Shown: in pieces, positions 2,570 through 10,511 of the stretch
Numbering within the stretch: position 1 is the first letter of the stretch
Layout: each line of letters starts with the position of its first letter
Source: Gemmatimonadota bacterium
Lineage (GTDB): Bacteria > Gemmatimonadota > Gemmatimonadetes > Gemmatimonadales > Gemmatimonadaceae
DNA: 32,372 nucleotides
NCBI GenBank assembly: GCA_026387935.1
Contig: JAPLKU010000017.1
Coordinates: 1 to 32,372 of the forward strand
Direction: 5' to 3'
The notes under the pieces: generated by a model
Databases searched by the model: none
Told to the model about the DNA's origin: nothing
The model's input: only the letters and a program-made list of their open reading frames with translations
Made by a program: the position numbers and the translations under genes

Positions 2570-3154
2570 ATGTTTGCCCTCGCCCTGGCCGGTGTAATTG
2601 TCATGGGAGGTGTCGACACGCTCGAGTTCCCTCGCGCGGCGAACAGCGGCCCTCGTGAAGCGCCAGCGGGCGTATCGGCCCCGGCGACGGACACCGTCGC
2701 ACGAAAGCGCGCGAAGGCGGTGGAACTGAGTGACTGGTACGCCACCCGCCTCTCGATCCACAAAGCCGCGAGCTGGGCCATGATCCCGCTCTTCGTCGGG
2801 CAGTACTACACCGGACAGACGCTCATCAACGAGGGGACCGATTCGCCGGAGTGGGTCAAGCGCACCCATCCCGTGCTCGCGACCGGCGTCCTTGCACTCT
2901 TCGCGACGAATACGGTTACCGGAGTGTGGAACCTCATCGAAACGCGAGACAACGAGAAGGGCCGTGCGTGGCGCACCACGCATGCGATCCTCATGCTCGC
3001 CTCCGACGCCGGGTTTGCGTATGTCGGTCAGCTGTCGCGCACGGCAAAGCAGTCCGGCGACGTCCGGAATCAACACCGCACGGCGGCCATCCTTTCCGGA
3101 AGCGCGGCCTTGGCGTCATACCTCATGATGCTTTCGCCCATCCGGAGAGACTGA
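2570..3154 (+). CDS. Four-helix membrane protein with one His per helix (possible b-type cytochrome)
   Basis: A 194-aa protein I cannot assign to a named family. After a hydrophobic N-terminus (1-13) and a polar segment to about 58, four predicted membrane helices follow at roughly 62-82, 99-122, 136-155 and 170-188. Each begins with a histidine: H64, H100, H138 and H169. Because successive helices alternate in direction, H64/H138 would lie near one membrane face and H100/H169 near the other, the layout expected for two b hemes as in cytochrome b561-like bundles. That heme role is inference. The gene opens a cluster with two Rieske proteins and overlaps the next start by 1 nt (TGATG), supporting electron transfer in the membrane. 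It might instead be a structural membrane protein with conserved interfacial His residues. Confidence 0.75.
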   Translation: MFALALAGVIVMGGVDTLEFPRAANSGPREAPAGVSAPATDTVARKRAKAVELSDWYATRLSIHKAASWAMIPLFVGQYYTGQTLINEGTDSPEWVKRTHPVLATGVLALFATNTVTGVWNLIETRDNEKGRAWRTTHAILMLASDAGFAYVGQLSRTAKQSGDVRNQHRTAAILSGSAALASYLMMLSPIRRD

Positions 3155-4014
3155 TGAGCGCCACACACGACGCCCCCTGCAGCGGATGCGCGCTCGACCG
3201 GCGCACCTTTCTTTCGCAGTCCACGCTCGTGGCCGTCGCGGCGTTGCTCACCGATGCCTGTGGCACTGGCGTGTGGGATCCGCAGGTCCCGGCCACGCCT
3301 CTCGCTCCGACCGCCGGCCTGAGCCTCCGCGTAACCGATTATCCGGCGCTCAGCGTCGTCGGCGGAATCGTCCAGATCACAGACCCCGCCGCTGGCCCGC
3401 TCGCCATCGTGCGTATCGGGGCCACCAGCTTCGTCGCCCTGTCGCTCAGGTGCCCGCACCAGGGCACGACCGTGAACGTGTCGGGCGCCGGGTTCGTCTG
3501 CCCAAACCATGGCGCCCGCTTTTCAACGACAGGCACCTGGACCGGCGGTCAGGCCACCGCGAATCTGACGTCATACCCGATGACATACAACGCAGTGACT
3601 GGCACCCTCAGCATGCCGGCCACGACGACCACCGCTCCGGCAACGCCTGTCGCCAACGGCACCAAGCTGCTGGTGACGCTCGCGACCGTTCCAGCACTCG
3701 CCGTCGTCGGCGGCATTGCCAGGGTGGACGGCAACAGCTCGTCGCCAATCGCCCTGGTGCGAAGCAGCGAAACAACCTATGTGGCGCTCTCCATGCGCTG
3801 CCCCCATCAAGGCGCAACGGTGTCCATCCAGTCGGGTGGGTTTACCTGCCCGCGCCACGGGGCGCGCTTCTCGGCTGTCGGCACCTGGCTCGGCGGCGAA
3901 CGCACCACAAGCCTGCGGGTGTTGACGTCAGCATTCGATGCCGCGGCCGGATCCGTCACGATCACGATTCCGACGGGTAATGGTGAAGGTGACGACGTCA
4001 TCGGCAATCACTAG
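3154..4014 (+). CDS. Tat-exported protein with two tandem Rieske [2Fe-2S] domains
   Basis: A 286-aa protein. The N-terminus has CSGC (C9/C12), a twin-arginine signal DRRTFL (R16-R17) and a hydrophobic stretch ending LLTDACG, where C36 gives a poor lipobox. Two Rieske domains follow, each complete: C100-P-H102 with C116-PN-H119, and C216-P-H218 with C232-PR-H235, joined by a Thr/Ala/Pro linker near 155-170. Neither domain has the extra Cys pair of bc1/b6f Rieske proteins (CTHLGC...CPCHG), so the disulfide is absent and the clusters should be of the ferredoxin-like type. The reading frame is open further upstream (to 2851), but ATG 3154 overlaps the previous stop and starts just ahead of the Tat motif. 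It probably sits at the outer face of the inner membrane, taking electrons from or giving them to its membrane neighbours. Two clusters in one exported polypeptide is unusual. Confidence 0.88.
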   Translation: MSATHDAPCSGCALDRRTFLSQSTLVAVAALLTDACGTGVWDPQVPATPLAPTAGLSLRVTDYPALSVVGGIVQITDPAAGPLAIVRIGATSFVALSLRCPHQGTTVNVSGAGFVCPNHGARFSTTGTWTGGQATANLTSYPMTYNAVTGTLSMPATTTTAPATPVANGTKLLVTLATVPALAVVGGIARVDGNSSSPIALVRSSETTYVALSMRCPHQGATVSIQSGGFTCPRHGARFSAVGTWLGGERTTSLRVLTSAFDAAAGSVTITIPTGNGEGDDVIGNH

Positions 4015-4034
4015 CACGAGCCCCACACTCCCCA

Positions 4035-4535
4035 ATGTCCATCGTCGAAACCCTCGCGGCCGCGGTCAAGCCGTGGAACGAGCTCTACTCGCACTCGAAG
4101 GTCGTGTCCGCGTCGGTCACCTACGCCCACCTCGGCTCGCTGCTGGTTGGGGGTGGTTTTGCGATCGCCTCGGATCGCACGGCGCTTCGCGTCCGCACAG
4201 CGGACATTGAGGAGCGGCGTCGCGTACTCCGCGATTTCGCCGGCATCCACAAGCCGGTGGTCACGGCGCTCGCCATCATCGTGGTCAGTGGGCTCGCGAT
4301 GATGCTCGCCGATGTCGAGACCTTTCTCGTCTCGCCGGTGTACTGGACGAAGATGGCGCTGTTCGTGCTGTTGCTGTCGAATGGATATCTCGTGATGCGC
4401 ACCGAGCACTCGCTGACAACGAATCCGTCGCCAGCGAATCCCCTCTGGGGACGCTTCACCATGGGCGCCATTGCGAGCCTGATCCTCTGGCTGACCACGA
4501 CGCTCATCGGCGTGATCCTGATGAGCGCTTCCTAG
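4035..4535 (+). CDS. Four-helix membrane protein of the Rieske cluster
   Basis: A 166-aa integral membrane protein, family not securely recognised. Helices are expected at about 26-46, 72-92, 103-121 and 141-163. Histidines occur at H20, H32 (inside helix 1), H72 (start of helix 2) and H125 (end of helix 3); H32/H72 could ligate a heme, but this is inference. A charged cytoplasm-like loop (about 47-70, rich in Arg/Glu) separates helices 1 and 2. The SPVYWTKMALFVLLLSNGY segment resembles small uncharacterised 4-helix families such as DUF2214/DUF6644 (recalled resemblance, untested). It lies 20 nt after the double-Rieske gene and 15 nt before the single-Rieske gene, so it is probably their membrane partner. 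No clear ribosome binding site is seen before ATG 4035. Confidence 0.75.
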   Translation: MSIVETLAAAVKPWNELYSHSKVVSASVTYAHLGSLLVGGGFAIASDRTALRVRTADIEERRRVLRDFAGIHKPVVTALAIIVVSGLAMMLADVETFLVSPVYWTKMALFVLLLSNGYLVMRTEHSLTTNPSPANPLWGRFTMGAIASLILWLTTTLIGVILMSAS

Positions 4536-4550
4536 GGGAAACTCACGATC

Positions 4551-5060
4551 GTGACCAACGACAGCATGGGGCGCACGAACGGCCCCTGCCCCGGATGTGA
4601 TGTCGGTCGACGCGCCTTTCTGCGCGATGCCGCACTCATTGTCGCCGCCATCGGCGTTGCCGGATCGCGCGCCGGCGCCATGCCGATGGGCGCCATTGAG
4701 TCGATCGCACGCCACGGCGATTCGACGACCTATCCGATTCCAGCAACCGACGGCGTAAACGTCGACAAGAAGAACGACACCATGGTTGCGCGGGTCGGCG
4801 GAAAGCTGTTCGTCTTTGCCCGTACCTGCCCGCACCAGAACACGGCGCTCAAGTGGCTCGACAAGGACAAACGCTTCCAGTGCCCGAAGCACGATTCCAA
4901 GTACACGCCTGAGGGTGTGTTCATGGAAGGCCGGGCGACGCGTTCACTCGACCGGTTTGCCGTCCGCAAGGAAGGCAACACCGTGATTGCTGACCTCGAC
5001 AAGCTTTTTGAAGAGGACAAGTCGCGCGCCGAGTGGGCGGCGGCGTTTATCAGCGTGTAG
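4551..5060 (+). CDS. Tat-exported single-domain Rieske [2Fe-2S] protein
   Basis: A 169-aa protein with CPGC (C13/C16), twin-arginine motif GRRAFL (R20-R21) and a hydrophobic stretch of about 27-38, followed by a Rieske fold. Cluster ligands are C93-P-H95 and C111-PK-H114. The disulfide cysteines of bc1-type Rieske proteins are absent. The start may be GTG 4551 or the in-frame ATG 4566; both keep the Cys pair and Tat motif. A charged C-terminal extension (about 150-169, KLFEEDKSRAEW) follows the domain. Its N-terminal layout, PC-x-GC then three residues then RR-x-FL, matches the double-Rieske protein two genes upstream, although the Rieske domains differ. It is likely exported folded with its cluster loaded, and acts with the same membrane proteins. 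It may be soluble or held by an uncleaved signal. Confidence 0.87.
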   Translation: MTNDSMGRTNGPCPGCDVGRRAFLRDAALIVAAIGVAGSRAGAMPMGAIESIARHGDSTTYPIPATDGVNVDKKNDTMVARVGGKLFVFARTCPHQNTALKWLDKDKRFQCPKHDSKYTPEGVFMEGRATRSLDRFAVRKEGNTVIADLDKLFEEDKSRAEWAAAFISV

Positions 5061-7774: not shown

Positions 7775-9787
7775 TTACGGAATAACTGGCGACACGCAGG
7801 TCACCTTCGAGAGATCGGCGATCGCCTTCGCCACCAGCTGCACGCGTCCCTTGTCAGACGCACCGGCTACGTCGCCGGTGACCGACGTGCCGATCGTCGC
7901 GAGCGCGGCGTTCCGTCCGCCACATCCGCCGCGCTCCGCCGACATAAGGTCGTTCCGGATCGCCGCAATACGGCTCGCCGAAAGCCCGCTATTCCGCTCG
8001 AGCTGGTCCAGATACGCCCGCGCCAGCGGGAGACTTGGCGGCCACACCGTGTGCGGCTGCTCCTGAGAGTTGAACTGCTCGTAGCGCACCGTCTTCGCTG
8101 CGTCGATTTCGTTCTGCGAGAGGTACTGACTCGGCGTCAGCTCGTGCACGTCGAGTCCGCGCGCCTCATCCGACGAAACAATCACGCCGTTGTACCAGTA
8201 CGTGGACCAGTAGCCGCCACCCGGCCCGCGATCGAAGAAGCCAATCTCGATCGGCTTCGCCGGATCGGTCCAGTCGAATACGGTCGCGCCGCCCATGTAG
8301 AAGGCCTGCACCATCACATCGCGACCCGGAATCGGAATGAGCGAGCCGTTATGCGCCGTGCAGATCTCTTCGTTCGTCTGCGGAGCCGGCATCTTGTAAT
8401 AGCTCTTGAACTTCAGCTCGCCATCTTCGACAGTGAAGATCGCGTTGCCGCCCCATTCCATCTTGTCGGTCGCGCGGCACCGCGGTGCGCCACCGCCGCC
8501 CCACTCGTCGGAGAAGAGCAGCTTCGATCCGTCGTTGCTGAACGTGGCCGAATGCCAGAAGGACATGTTGGAGTCAGCGACGGACTTGAGGCGCTTCGGG
8601 TTTTTTGGGTCACGAATATCGAAGAGCAATCCGTAGCCGGCGCAGGCCCCACCGGCGTAGCCAACCGCAGGATATGCCGTGATGTCGTGGCAACCGCTCT
8701 GACCGACGCCACCACCGCCACCGCCGCCGCCACCGCCGCCGCCACCCGCGCGGCCGCCACCCGCACGGCCGCCAGCCGGAGGAGCACCAGCTGTAGCACC
8801 GGTTGCAGCACCAGCTGCAGCACCGGCGCCGCCAGCAGCGCCACCTGCGCCGGCAACCGCGCCCGGAGGCGGAGCGCCACGACCACCGCCACGGCCACCG
8901 CGCGCGCCCGTATCAGACGGCGGCGGTGCGTGAACCGTGCGACCGGCGAGATCAGCGAGAAGGTGCGGTGAGTTCACCACTGCCGCACGCTCGGGGTTCT
9001 TGAGTGGCACCTTGATGATTTCGATACGGAACCGCGCGCTGCTCGAGTCACCGGCCGGCGCGTCCTGACAGTTCGCAAGTTCCTTTGACGAACGCACCGC
9101 CGAATAACCCGAGACGTAGACGTAGATGTTGTCCTTGTCGCCCGGATCCTGCACGAGCGAATTCGTGTGCGAACCGCGGCACGTCTGCACGTTGGTAATG
9201 AGTCGCGGACTCGCCTTGTTCGAGATGTCGAACACGCGAACACCACGGAACCGGTCCATGCTCACCGAGTCGGTGATCGGCGTCGTACCGCAGTCATTGC
9301 GCGCGCCCTGCGATTCGCCGGAGATGAAGAGCAGGTTGCCGTACACCGTCGGGTCGCCCTGGCTCGTCGGGCAGAGATATGCCGACACGAGTTTGGGTGA
9401 GCGCGGGTTGGACATCTCCCAGATCGCGAAGCCGCGATAGTTGCCCTGAATCGCGTAGGTGCCCGAGAACGCGAGGTCAGAACCTGTCGCGCCGCGGCCT
9501 GTGAATGCCGGCGGTGCCGGCGAGTTCGACAACAGCTTCATGTTGAATGCCGCTTCGCCGGCCTCGCTGGCAGCGGCGCCCGGCTTGAGGCCAATGCGCG
9601 GATCCGGATTCGGCGCCTTGGCGGTTTCCGGATACTTCATCAGCGGCGAATTCGAGAGCGAAATGTCGCCGGAGACGGTTCGGCCGTCAGCCGGACGCGG
9701 CGGGCCGCCGGGCGTGAGCCCGCGCGAGCAGGCGGCGGCGACAACGAGAAGCACTGCAAAAACAAACGCGAGTCTGGAAGTACGCAT
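7775..9787 (-). CDS. LVIVD-type beta-propeller lipoprotein with glycine-rich insert
   Basis: A 670-aa exported lipoprotein: Arg-containing n-region, hydrophobic core and lipobox VVAAAC with lipidation Cys20. The body has repeated short blade motifs such as YRGFAIWEMSNPRSPKLV, FRGVRVFDISNKASPRLI and YGLLFDIRDPKNPKRL, the LVIVD/choice-of-anchor propeller pattern. Between blades, about residues 290-370 form a Gly/Ala/Pro-rich low-complexity stretch with a run of about a dozen glycines (about 8700-8900), then the fold resumes at CHDITAYPAVGYAGG. Cysteines in the propeller suggest envelope disulfides. It lies 67 nt downstream of a DUF305 lipoprotein on the same strand; DUF305 and LVIVD proteins are often neighbours (known from memory). 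Function is unknown; surface binding or metal handling is a guess. Confidence 0.85.
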   Translation of the reverse strand: MRTSRLAFVFAVLLVVAAACSRGLTPGGPPRPADGRTVSGDISLSNSPLMKYPETAKAPNPDPRIGLKPGAAASEAGEAAFNMKLLSNSPAPPAFTGRGATGSDLAFSGTYAIQGNYRGFAIWEMSNPRSPKLVSAYLCPTSQGDPTVYGNLLFISGESQGARNDCGTTPITDSVSMDRFRGVRVFDISNKASPRLITNVQTCRGSHTNSLVQDPGDKDNIYVYVSGYSAVRSSKELANCQDAPAGDSSSARFRIEIIKVPLKNPERAAVVNSPHLLADLAGRTVHAPPPSDTGARGGRGGGRGAPPPGAVAGAGGAAGGAGAAAGAATGATAGAPPAGGRAGGGRAGGGGGGGGGGGGGVGQSGCHDITAYPAVGYAGGACAGYGLLFDIRDPKNPKRLKSVADSNMSFWHSATFSNDGSKLLFSDEWGGGGAPRCRATDKMEWGGNAIFTVEDGELKFKSYYKMPAPQTNEEICTAHNGSLIPIPGRDVMVQAFYMGGATVFDWTDPAKPIEIGFFDRGPGGGYWSTYWYNGVIVSSDEARGLDVHELTPSQYLSQNEIDAAKTVRYEQFNSQEQPHTVWPPSLPLARAYLDQLERNSGLSASRIAAIRNDLMSAERGGCGGRNAALATIGTSVTGDVAGASDKGRVQLVAKAIADLSKVTCVSPVIP

Positions 9788-9820: not shown

Positions 9821-9868
9821 CTACCGACTACCGTCTGCCATCTACCGTCTGTTCCTACGGTACCGTCT
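9821..9868. repeat. Short CTACCGTCTG direct repeats
   Basis: Two exact copies of CTACCGTCTG (9828-9837 and 9842-9851, 14-nt period) are flanked by partial copies CTACCG at 9821 and TACCGTCT at 9861. They span the DUF305 stop codon (9855-9857) and the gap before the LVIVD gene. Confidence 0.6.
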
Positions 9869-10511
9869 CCAGCATCCTGAGCATCAAACTGATCTCGGCC
9901 GACTGATCCGAGACCACATCGTTGGCAAACCTGAATACGGTCTCGTCGTGACCAGCGTTGCCGTGGCTGAATAAGGTGGTCACCATTTCGATCGCGCCGC
10001 GGTGATGGCGAATCATGCCGTTGAGAAAGAGCCGGTCGAACGCCACACCACGCGCCTTTTCCAGCGCGGCCATCTCCTCGTCGCTCAGCATGCCCGGCAT
10101 CATCTCTTCGTGGACCATGCCGCCCATCTTCATCACGTGGCGGGTGGCTGTGGAGTCGGGGACTGCCTGCGCCCGCTCGCCCAGCCAGCGGCGCATCATA
10201 TGTATCTCATCGCGCTGCGCGACCACGATGCGTTCGCAGAGGCGCTGGACATCGGCGCGGGCGCCATGTGAAGGCGCCCAGCCCGCCATCTGCACCGCCT
10301 GAGCATGGTGCGGAATCATCCCCTGCATGAAGTCGACGTCAGCGGGCGCAAACGCCCGCGCCGCACTGTCGGCCGTCGCCAGCGCGATGGTCATCGCCGC
10401 CGAGCCATTTCCCACCACCCCGACGCCGGAAGCGAGAACGATGGGCTTGGTCTGCGGCGCCGAATGGCAGGCCGCAGCAACTATGAGTACCGCAATCCAG
10501 AGATGCCGCAT
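9855..10511 (-). CDS. DUF305 lipoprotein, His/Met-rich
   Basis: A 218-aa protein with lipoprotein signal ending VAAAC (Cys15). It is a DUF305 (ferritin-like four-helix) domain with the paired family motifs FMQGMIPHHAQAV (H68/H69) and LNGMIRHHRGAIEM (H169/H170). Additional potential metal ligands are H104 in EIHMM and a Met/His-rich stretch at 125-141 (HVMKMGGMVHEEMMPGM). Such residues suit copper or other soft-metal binding in the envelope, but the family's role is not settled. It is the first gene of a minus-strand pair with the LVIVD lipoprotein and is divergent from lipB (77 nt apart). The start is preceded by AGGA 4 nt upstream and by a TAGTTT -10-like element ending 8 nt before ATG. Confidence 0.9.
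   Translation of the reverse strand: MRHLWIAVLIVAAACHSAPQTKPIVLASGVGVVGNGSAAMTIALATADSAARAFAPADVDFMQGMIPHHAQAVQMAGWAPSHGARADVQRLCERIVVAQRDEIHMMRRWLGERAQAVPDSTATRHVMKMGGMVHEEMMPGMLSDEEMAALEKARGVAFDRLFLNGMIRHHRGAIEMVTTLFSHGNAGHDETVFRFANDVVSDQSAEISLMLRMLETVP

Follow-up and report, generated by a model that had tools for sequence, protein, structure and literature searches.

A four-gene locus conserved in Gemmatimonadota encodes a predicted diheme membrane protein, another membrane protein with four helices and two types of exported Rieske protein

We analyzed a stretch of DNA of 32,372 nucleotides (contig JAPLKU010000017.1, hereafter the window) from the 2.8 Mb genome of a Gemmatimonadota bacterium, and in particular four consecutive genes, P1 to P4, listed in Table 1. 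The TGA stop codon of P1 and the ATG start codon of P2 share one nucleotide, and the gaps between P2 and P3 and between P3 and P4 are 20 and 15 nucleotides, respectively. P1 and P3 encode small membrane proteins, and P2 and P4 encode Rieske proteins with twin-arginine translocation (Tat) signals. An initial annotation of this DNA had described a row of genes overlapping or at most 20 nucleotides apart, which encode a four-helix membrane protein with four histidines, another four-helix membrane protein, and three Rieske clusters on two Tat-exported proteins. The open reading frames, domain searches and AlphaFold models confirm this observation. The c-type heme motif CxxCH, as found in cytochromes of the c1/f type, is likewise absent from all four proteins of the window, in agreement with that annotation.

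Table 1. Features of the four-gene locus (positions in the window)
Feature	Position	Strand	Description
P1	2570..3154	+	194-aa four-helix protein with four invariant His (H64, H100, H138, H169); DUF4079 relative
P2	3154..4014	+	286-aa Tat-exported double-Rieske protein, probable Tat lipoprotein
P2 Rieske domain 1	3397..3579	+	CPHQGT..CPNHGARF; without disulfide Cys, without Ser/Tyr
P2 Rieske domain 2	3742..3912	+	CPHQGA..CPRHGARF; without disulfide Cys, without Ser/Tyr
P3	4035..4535	+	166-aa four-helix membrane protein; DUF6644 above cut-off, weakly DUF2214/UPF0093/CopD
P4	4551..5060	+	169-aa Tat-exported single-Rieske protein; CPHQN..CPKHxSxY, no disulfide
P4 Rieske domain	4773..4958	+	

The four genes are held together across Gemmatimonadota in varied orders, beyond what chance would give. 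P1 has homologues in 89 of the 298 Gemmatimonadota genomes that were sampled (a tally that leaves out one match to a 33-residue fragment) and, among the close genomes, in 30 of 61; P3 was found at full strength in 86 of the 298. Both were present in 78 genomes, P1 alone in 11, P3 alone in 8 and neither in 201, a co-occurrence with a Fisher p-value of ~1e-49 when shared ancestry is ignored. Among the loci that we fetched, the commonest order was P1-P3-P4-P2 (13 loci), followed by P1-P3-P4 without P2 (9 loci) and by P1-P2 or P2-P1 by themselves (7 loci). The order of the window, P1-P2(double)-P3-P4, alone or with one extra gene, occurs in the window and five relatives, and in three loci (L055, L056 and L059) P1-P2 is split from P3-P4 by a gene of ~650 residues on the opposite strand. 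In L055 (10029-12020), the sole locus checked, this interposed gene encodes an ABC-F type ATPase and not an LVIVD-repeat protein. The check on conserved synteny that the initial annotation had proposed therefore came out in favor of the cluster, and since the order is shuffled while the genes stay linked, the association points to a functional tie and not to simple operon inheritance. P1 was not found in plasmid records, and a wide genome scan with P2 as query returned, outside Gemmatimonadota, distant Rieske proteins of Bacteroidota only.

The histidines of P1 are strictly conserved. H64, H100, H138 and H169, which make up the entire histidine content of the window protein and which the initial annotation had singled out for checking, are invariant in 59 of 59 P1 sequences, in an alignment whose columns are on average 37% identical. 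Further invariant residues include P73, G82, F111, N114, T117, G118, N121, F149 and M187. The AlphaFold model of P1 has helices at residues 56-91, 94-124, 132-159 and 163-185, with a predicted local distance difference test score (pLDDT) above 93 (mean, core). Each helix carries one histidine 6-8 residues from its start, on alternating faces; the pairing was derived from helix boundaries, not from model coordinates. Because each histidine lies 6-8 residues into its helix, H64/H138 and H100/H169 should sit on opposite membrane faces, so that the modeled four-helix bundle would hold conserved histidine pairs close to both. This layout matches the way in which the heme ligands are arranged in two-heme four-helix cytochromes, and P1 is predicted to be a b-type transmembrane cytochrome that would bind two hemes. 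The mean number of lysines and arginines is 5.2 in the N-terminal linker, 4.0 in the loop between helices 2 and 3 and 1.3 at the C-terminus, against 2.0 and 2.4, a charge bias suggesting that the linker, this loop and the C-terminus face inward.

The top Foldseek match to P1 is 4D2, a designed diheme four-helix protein in which the histidines are placed symmetrically on alternating helices (PMC10120048). It superposes on P1 with a root-mean-square deviation of 1.8 over 100 residues (Z 12.4). Cytochrome b6 chains are also among the structural matches; chains of eukaryotic CYB561 are absent among the 50 matches listed, which excludes nothing. A sequence likeness of P1 to the designed m4D2 was discarded, as its E-values of 0.12-0.34 are within chance, though the match crosses H100. 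In one P1 homologue (L079:7918-8592) the N-terminal linker contains a CxxCH motif and possibly carries a c-type heme.

The AlphaFold model of P3 consists of four long helices with a mean pLDDT of 93. In sequence P3 matches DUF6644 with 28.7 bits, above the cut-off of 27 and over nearly the full profile, and it shows weak Pfam matches to DUF2214, UPF0093 (HemJ) and CopD, which suggest kinship with a superfamily that handles heme or metal. Two of its histidines, H32 and H72, are invariant, as are W14, D47, R48, D93, K106, N116, S148 and W152; H20 and H125 vary. Counted from the helix ends, H32 and H72 lie at depths about nine residues apart, and they should therefore not share one heme. The earlier suggestion that the small histidine-bearing membrane proteins are the candidate electron partners, if they bind heme, needs refinement here: P1 alone has a diheme ligand set, and the two invariant histidines of P3 lie at different depths. 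A profile comparison gave no support for P1 and P3 as paralogues.

Both P2 and P4 contain Rieske domains above the Pfam cut-off, two in P2 (1.2e-19) and one in P4 (2.1e-8), with two sets and one set of CxH..CxxH ligands, and their Tat signals read RRTFL and RRAFL, respectively. In a tree of Rieske domains they fall into a P4 group (100/98) and a P2 group (88/86). The P4 class has a serine and a tyrosine beside the cluster in 41 of 41 clusters; among 46 P2 clusters the serine is found in 6 and the tyrosine in 4. The disulfide cysteine pair occurs in none of the 41 P4 clusters, in 7 of the 46 P2 clusters and in neither window protein. In the yeast Rieske protein this serine and tyrosine each raise the potential, by ~130 and 65 mV (PMC12954380). 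Because both residues act in this direction, P4 is the expected higher-potential partner. A lipobox-like cysteine follows the Tat signal in 34 of 39 P2 proteins and in none of the P4 homologues; the window P2 has a cysteine after its signal in an atypical lipobox, and P2 is probably a Tat lipoprotein. The double-Rieske form of P2 noted in the initial annotation is present in the window as described, but it turned out to be a local variant, as the commonest module, P1-P3-P4-P2, has single-Rieske proteins.

Two further features of the Rieske proteins were seen. A CxxC-type motif lies just upstream of the twin arginine in 37 of 42 and 37 of 39 homologues across the two classes (in the window, the N-termini of P2 and P4 at 3154-3260 and 4551-4640); the comparison set was three other Tat genes, of which one may be a Rieske gene cut short, so that the motif is not established as special. 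Another family of the order likewise has a double-Rieske P2 (L102:5137-5949), whose second domain is divergent and perhaps arose by an independent duplication.

Taken together, we consider it probable that the locus codes for a compact electron-transfer module in the membrane, consisting of a diheme P1, its partner P3 and two exported Rieske proteins; heme binding, quinone contact, topology, complex formation and the direction of electron flow are what we infer from the data above. One heme of P1 would lie between helices 1 and 3 (H64/H138), probably toward the cytoplasmic side, and the other between helices 2 and 4 (H100/H169), probably toward the periplasmic side; with predicted hemes near both sides, electrons could cross the membrane. 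P3 would be the partner membrane subunit, for which a quinone site or a single heme is our guess, and would work with P4, the Tat-exported Rieske protein tuned to a higher potential. P2 would be a lipoprotein on the periplasmic face that either donates electrons to P1 or accepts them from it. Most likely, electrons would leave the quinol pool by way of P1/P3, reach the Rieske proteins and pass from there to some periplasmic acceptor. The interpretation given in the initial annotation is thus partly supported, with heme binding and the quinol link as its predicted parts.

Several observations weigh against such a module. No acceptor gene consistently adjoins it, 11 genomes have P1 but no P3 and 8 have P3 but no P1, P3 has no paired histidines at one depth, and the hydrophobicity of P1 helices 1 and 3 is weak (family-averaged KD19 ~0.9-1.1). 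The window P1 scores 24.9 bits against DUF4079, below the Pfam cut-off of 31.4 and over 37 residues only, and 14.3 bits against PF01292 (Ni_hydr_CYTB, prokaryotic cytochrome b561), for which the cut-off is 30.1; PF03188 (cytochrome b561) has no match to P1. A PDB profile search yielded no homologue of P1, only chance matches. The Foldseek match to 4D2 is weak (best E 0.067), and generic helical bundles outscore it on P1 (Z 16 vs 12.4), so the fold match alone proves nothing. In favor of the module, 21 of 39 P1 members match DUF4079 (E up to 0.01) and 5 of 39 match prokaryotic cytochrome b561, in both cases weakly. A match to a family whose established role is not redox, which the initial annotation had set against its own proposal, was seen for neither membrane protein: P1 has sub-threshold matches to DUF4079 and b561, and P3 matches DUF6644.

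As P1-only and P3-only genomes exist, it is unlikely that all four proteins always form one strict complex. Two pairs that merely share an operon, P1 with P2 and P3 with P4, each wiring its own periplasmic partner without forming a four-part complex, are the most serious alternative, which we nevertheless judge rather unlikely. Such pairs would account for the seven loci with P1-P2 alone, for the adjacency of P3 and P4 even where the ABC-F gene parts them from P1-P2, and for the genomes with only P1 or only P3. They fit poorly with the commonest order, P1-P3-P4-P2, with the nine loci in which P1-P3-P4 occurs without P2, and with the very strong co-occurrence of P1 and P3.

It is more doubtful still that P1 and P3 form a superoxide- or peroxide-handling or quinone-reducing cytochrome like CybB of E. 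coli, with the Rieske proteins as periplasmic electron stores or sensors. Although 5 of 39 P1 members weakly match Ni_hydr_CYTB (best E 0.001), these matches are below the cut-off, no stress gene was seen consistently adjacent, and CybB has no known need for Rieske partners. Improbable in our view is also a role of P1 and P3 in heme or metal insertion or transport, with the Rieske proteins as cargo or regulators. The proximity of P3 to UPF0093 (HemJ) and CopD speaks for it, but these matches are weak, Rieske clusters carry electrons, and the four invariant P1 histidines on alternating helices fit bis-histidine heme ligation.

As the initial annotation had stated for the window, there is no bc1-type cytochrome b: PF00033 had no match in the whole genome, in a search that matched 8 of 14 controls. 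An NrfD gene is located on contig 23 beside genes for a protein with five CxxCH motifs and for a large protein with a Tat signal, an arrangement like that of alternative complex III (ACIII), a heme-copper oxidase is encoded elsewhere, and the sole other Rieske protein found in the genome is a ring-hydroxylating oxygenase. That the module replaces bc1 as the main quinol:cytochrome c route where cytochrome b is absent would agree with the lack of PF00033 here and in 40 genomes with P1, but we rejected this very improbable reading: across the 298 genomes P1 and cytochrome b are distributed independently of each other (49/40/108/101, p 0.61), and NrfD is present in 61 of 61 relatives. With an ACIII-like locus and an oxidase present and P1 independent of cytochrome b, the module is best read as an accessory electron route and not as the main complex III. 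A service to nitrous oxide respiration is the least probable reading and is disfavored, since nosZ is absent from the window's genome and not enriched in relatives (15 of 30 P1 genomes vs ~13 expected), despite its presence in 27 of 61 relatives, a nosZ propeller match ~5 kb from P1 in one of them (G053, C11 172133-177576), and a title cited in PMC5902568 according to which clade II NosZ needs a Rieske/cytochrome bc complex in Wolinella.

The Rieske proteins of respiration are familiar chiefly from bc1/b6f complexes, where they work with the 8-helix cytochrome b. Like these, the module would place a membrane protein with two expected b hemes beside an exported Rieske protein, and P4 retains the serine and tyrosine by which respiratory Rieske clusters are tuned. 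It differs in lacking both the 8-helix cytochrome b (PF00033) and a c1/f cytochrome, in its two classes of Rieske proteins without the disulfide, and in its histidines: cytochrome b of bc1/b6f has two on each of two helices, P1 one per helix. ACIII (ActABCDEF) consists of NrfD-type subunits, multiheme c cytochromes and iron-sulfur subunits and has no Rieske protein. The predicted quinol link would make the module a quinol-linked membrane complex of the same general kind, but the NrfD-type ActC and the multiheme ActA have no counterpart within it, NrfD being on another contig. The earlier view of a compact complex apart from bc1, b6f and ACIII stands as far as the missing bc1 cytochrome b is concerned, but the module would not be the sole quinol-oxidizing route in this genome.

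Small two-heme four-helix transmembrane bundles are known from the cytochromes b561 (PF01292, PF03188; E. coli CybB, eukaryotic CYB561), and eukaryotic CYB561 has one histidine on each of four helices, as P1 does; P1 differs by its score below the PF01292 cut-off, by the lack of a PF03188 match and by its Rieske partners. With the designed 4D2 and CytbX it shares an antiparallel four-helix bundle with heme-ligating histidines on alternating helices. Those are artificial sequences, so homology is not implied, and the hemes of 4D2 are closer together than the histidine spacing of P1 suggests. The nearest Pfam sequence relatives are DUF4079 for P1 and DUF6644, DUF2214, UPF0093 and CopD for P3; no function is known for the DUF families among them.

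Open-access papers on Rieske proteins in Gemmatimonadota, on these DUFs and on double-Rieske proteins gave no description of such a module. We tentatively propose, as a possibility somewhat short of even, a new type of quinol-Rieske complex, unrelated to the cytochrome b of bc1/b6f and widespread in Gemmatimonadota, in which a natural diheme P1 with one histidine per helix, together with P3, feeds two kinds of Rieske protein beside ACIII. If true, the four-helix partner would represent an independent way to link Rieske proteins to electron transfer in the membrane and a natural counterpart of the designers' minimal diheme proteins, 4D2 and CytbX, and an abundant soil phylum would possess an unrecognised branch of the respiratory chain. 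DUF4079-like and DUF6644 proteins would thereby gain a testable redox role.

The four-gene block is flanked by a putative dihydrolipoamide dehydrogenase gene on one side and a transketolase-like gene on the other. Beyond the latter, on the opposite strand, an LVIVD-repeat gene and a DUF305 gene were rejected as members of the module. The first (7775-9787, minus strand) encodes a secreted LVIVD-repeat protein with a long Gly/Ala-rich insert, and the DUF305 protein adjoins it at 9855-10511 on the same strand.
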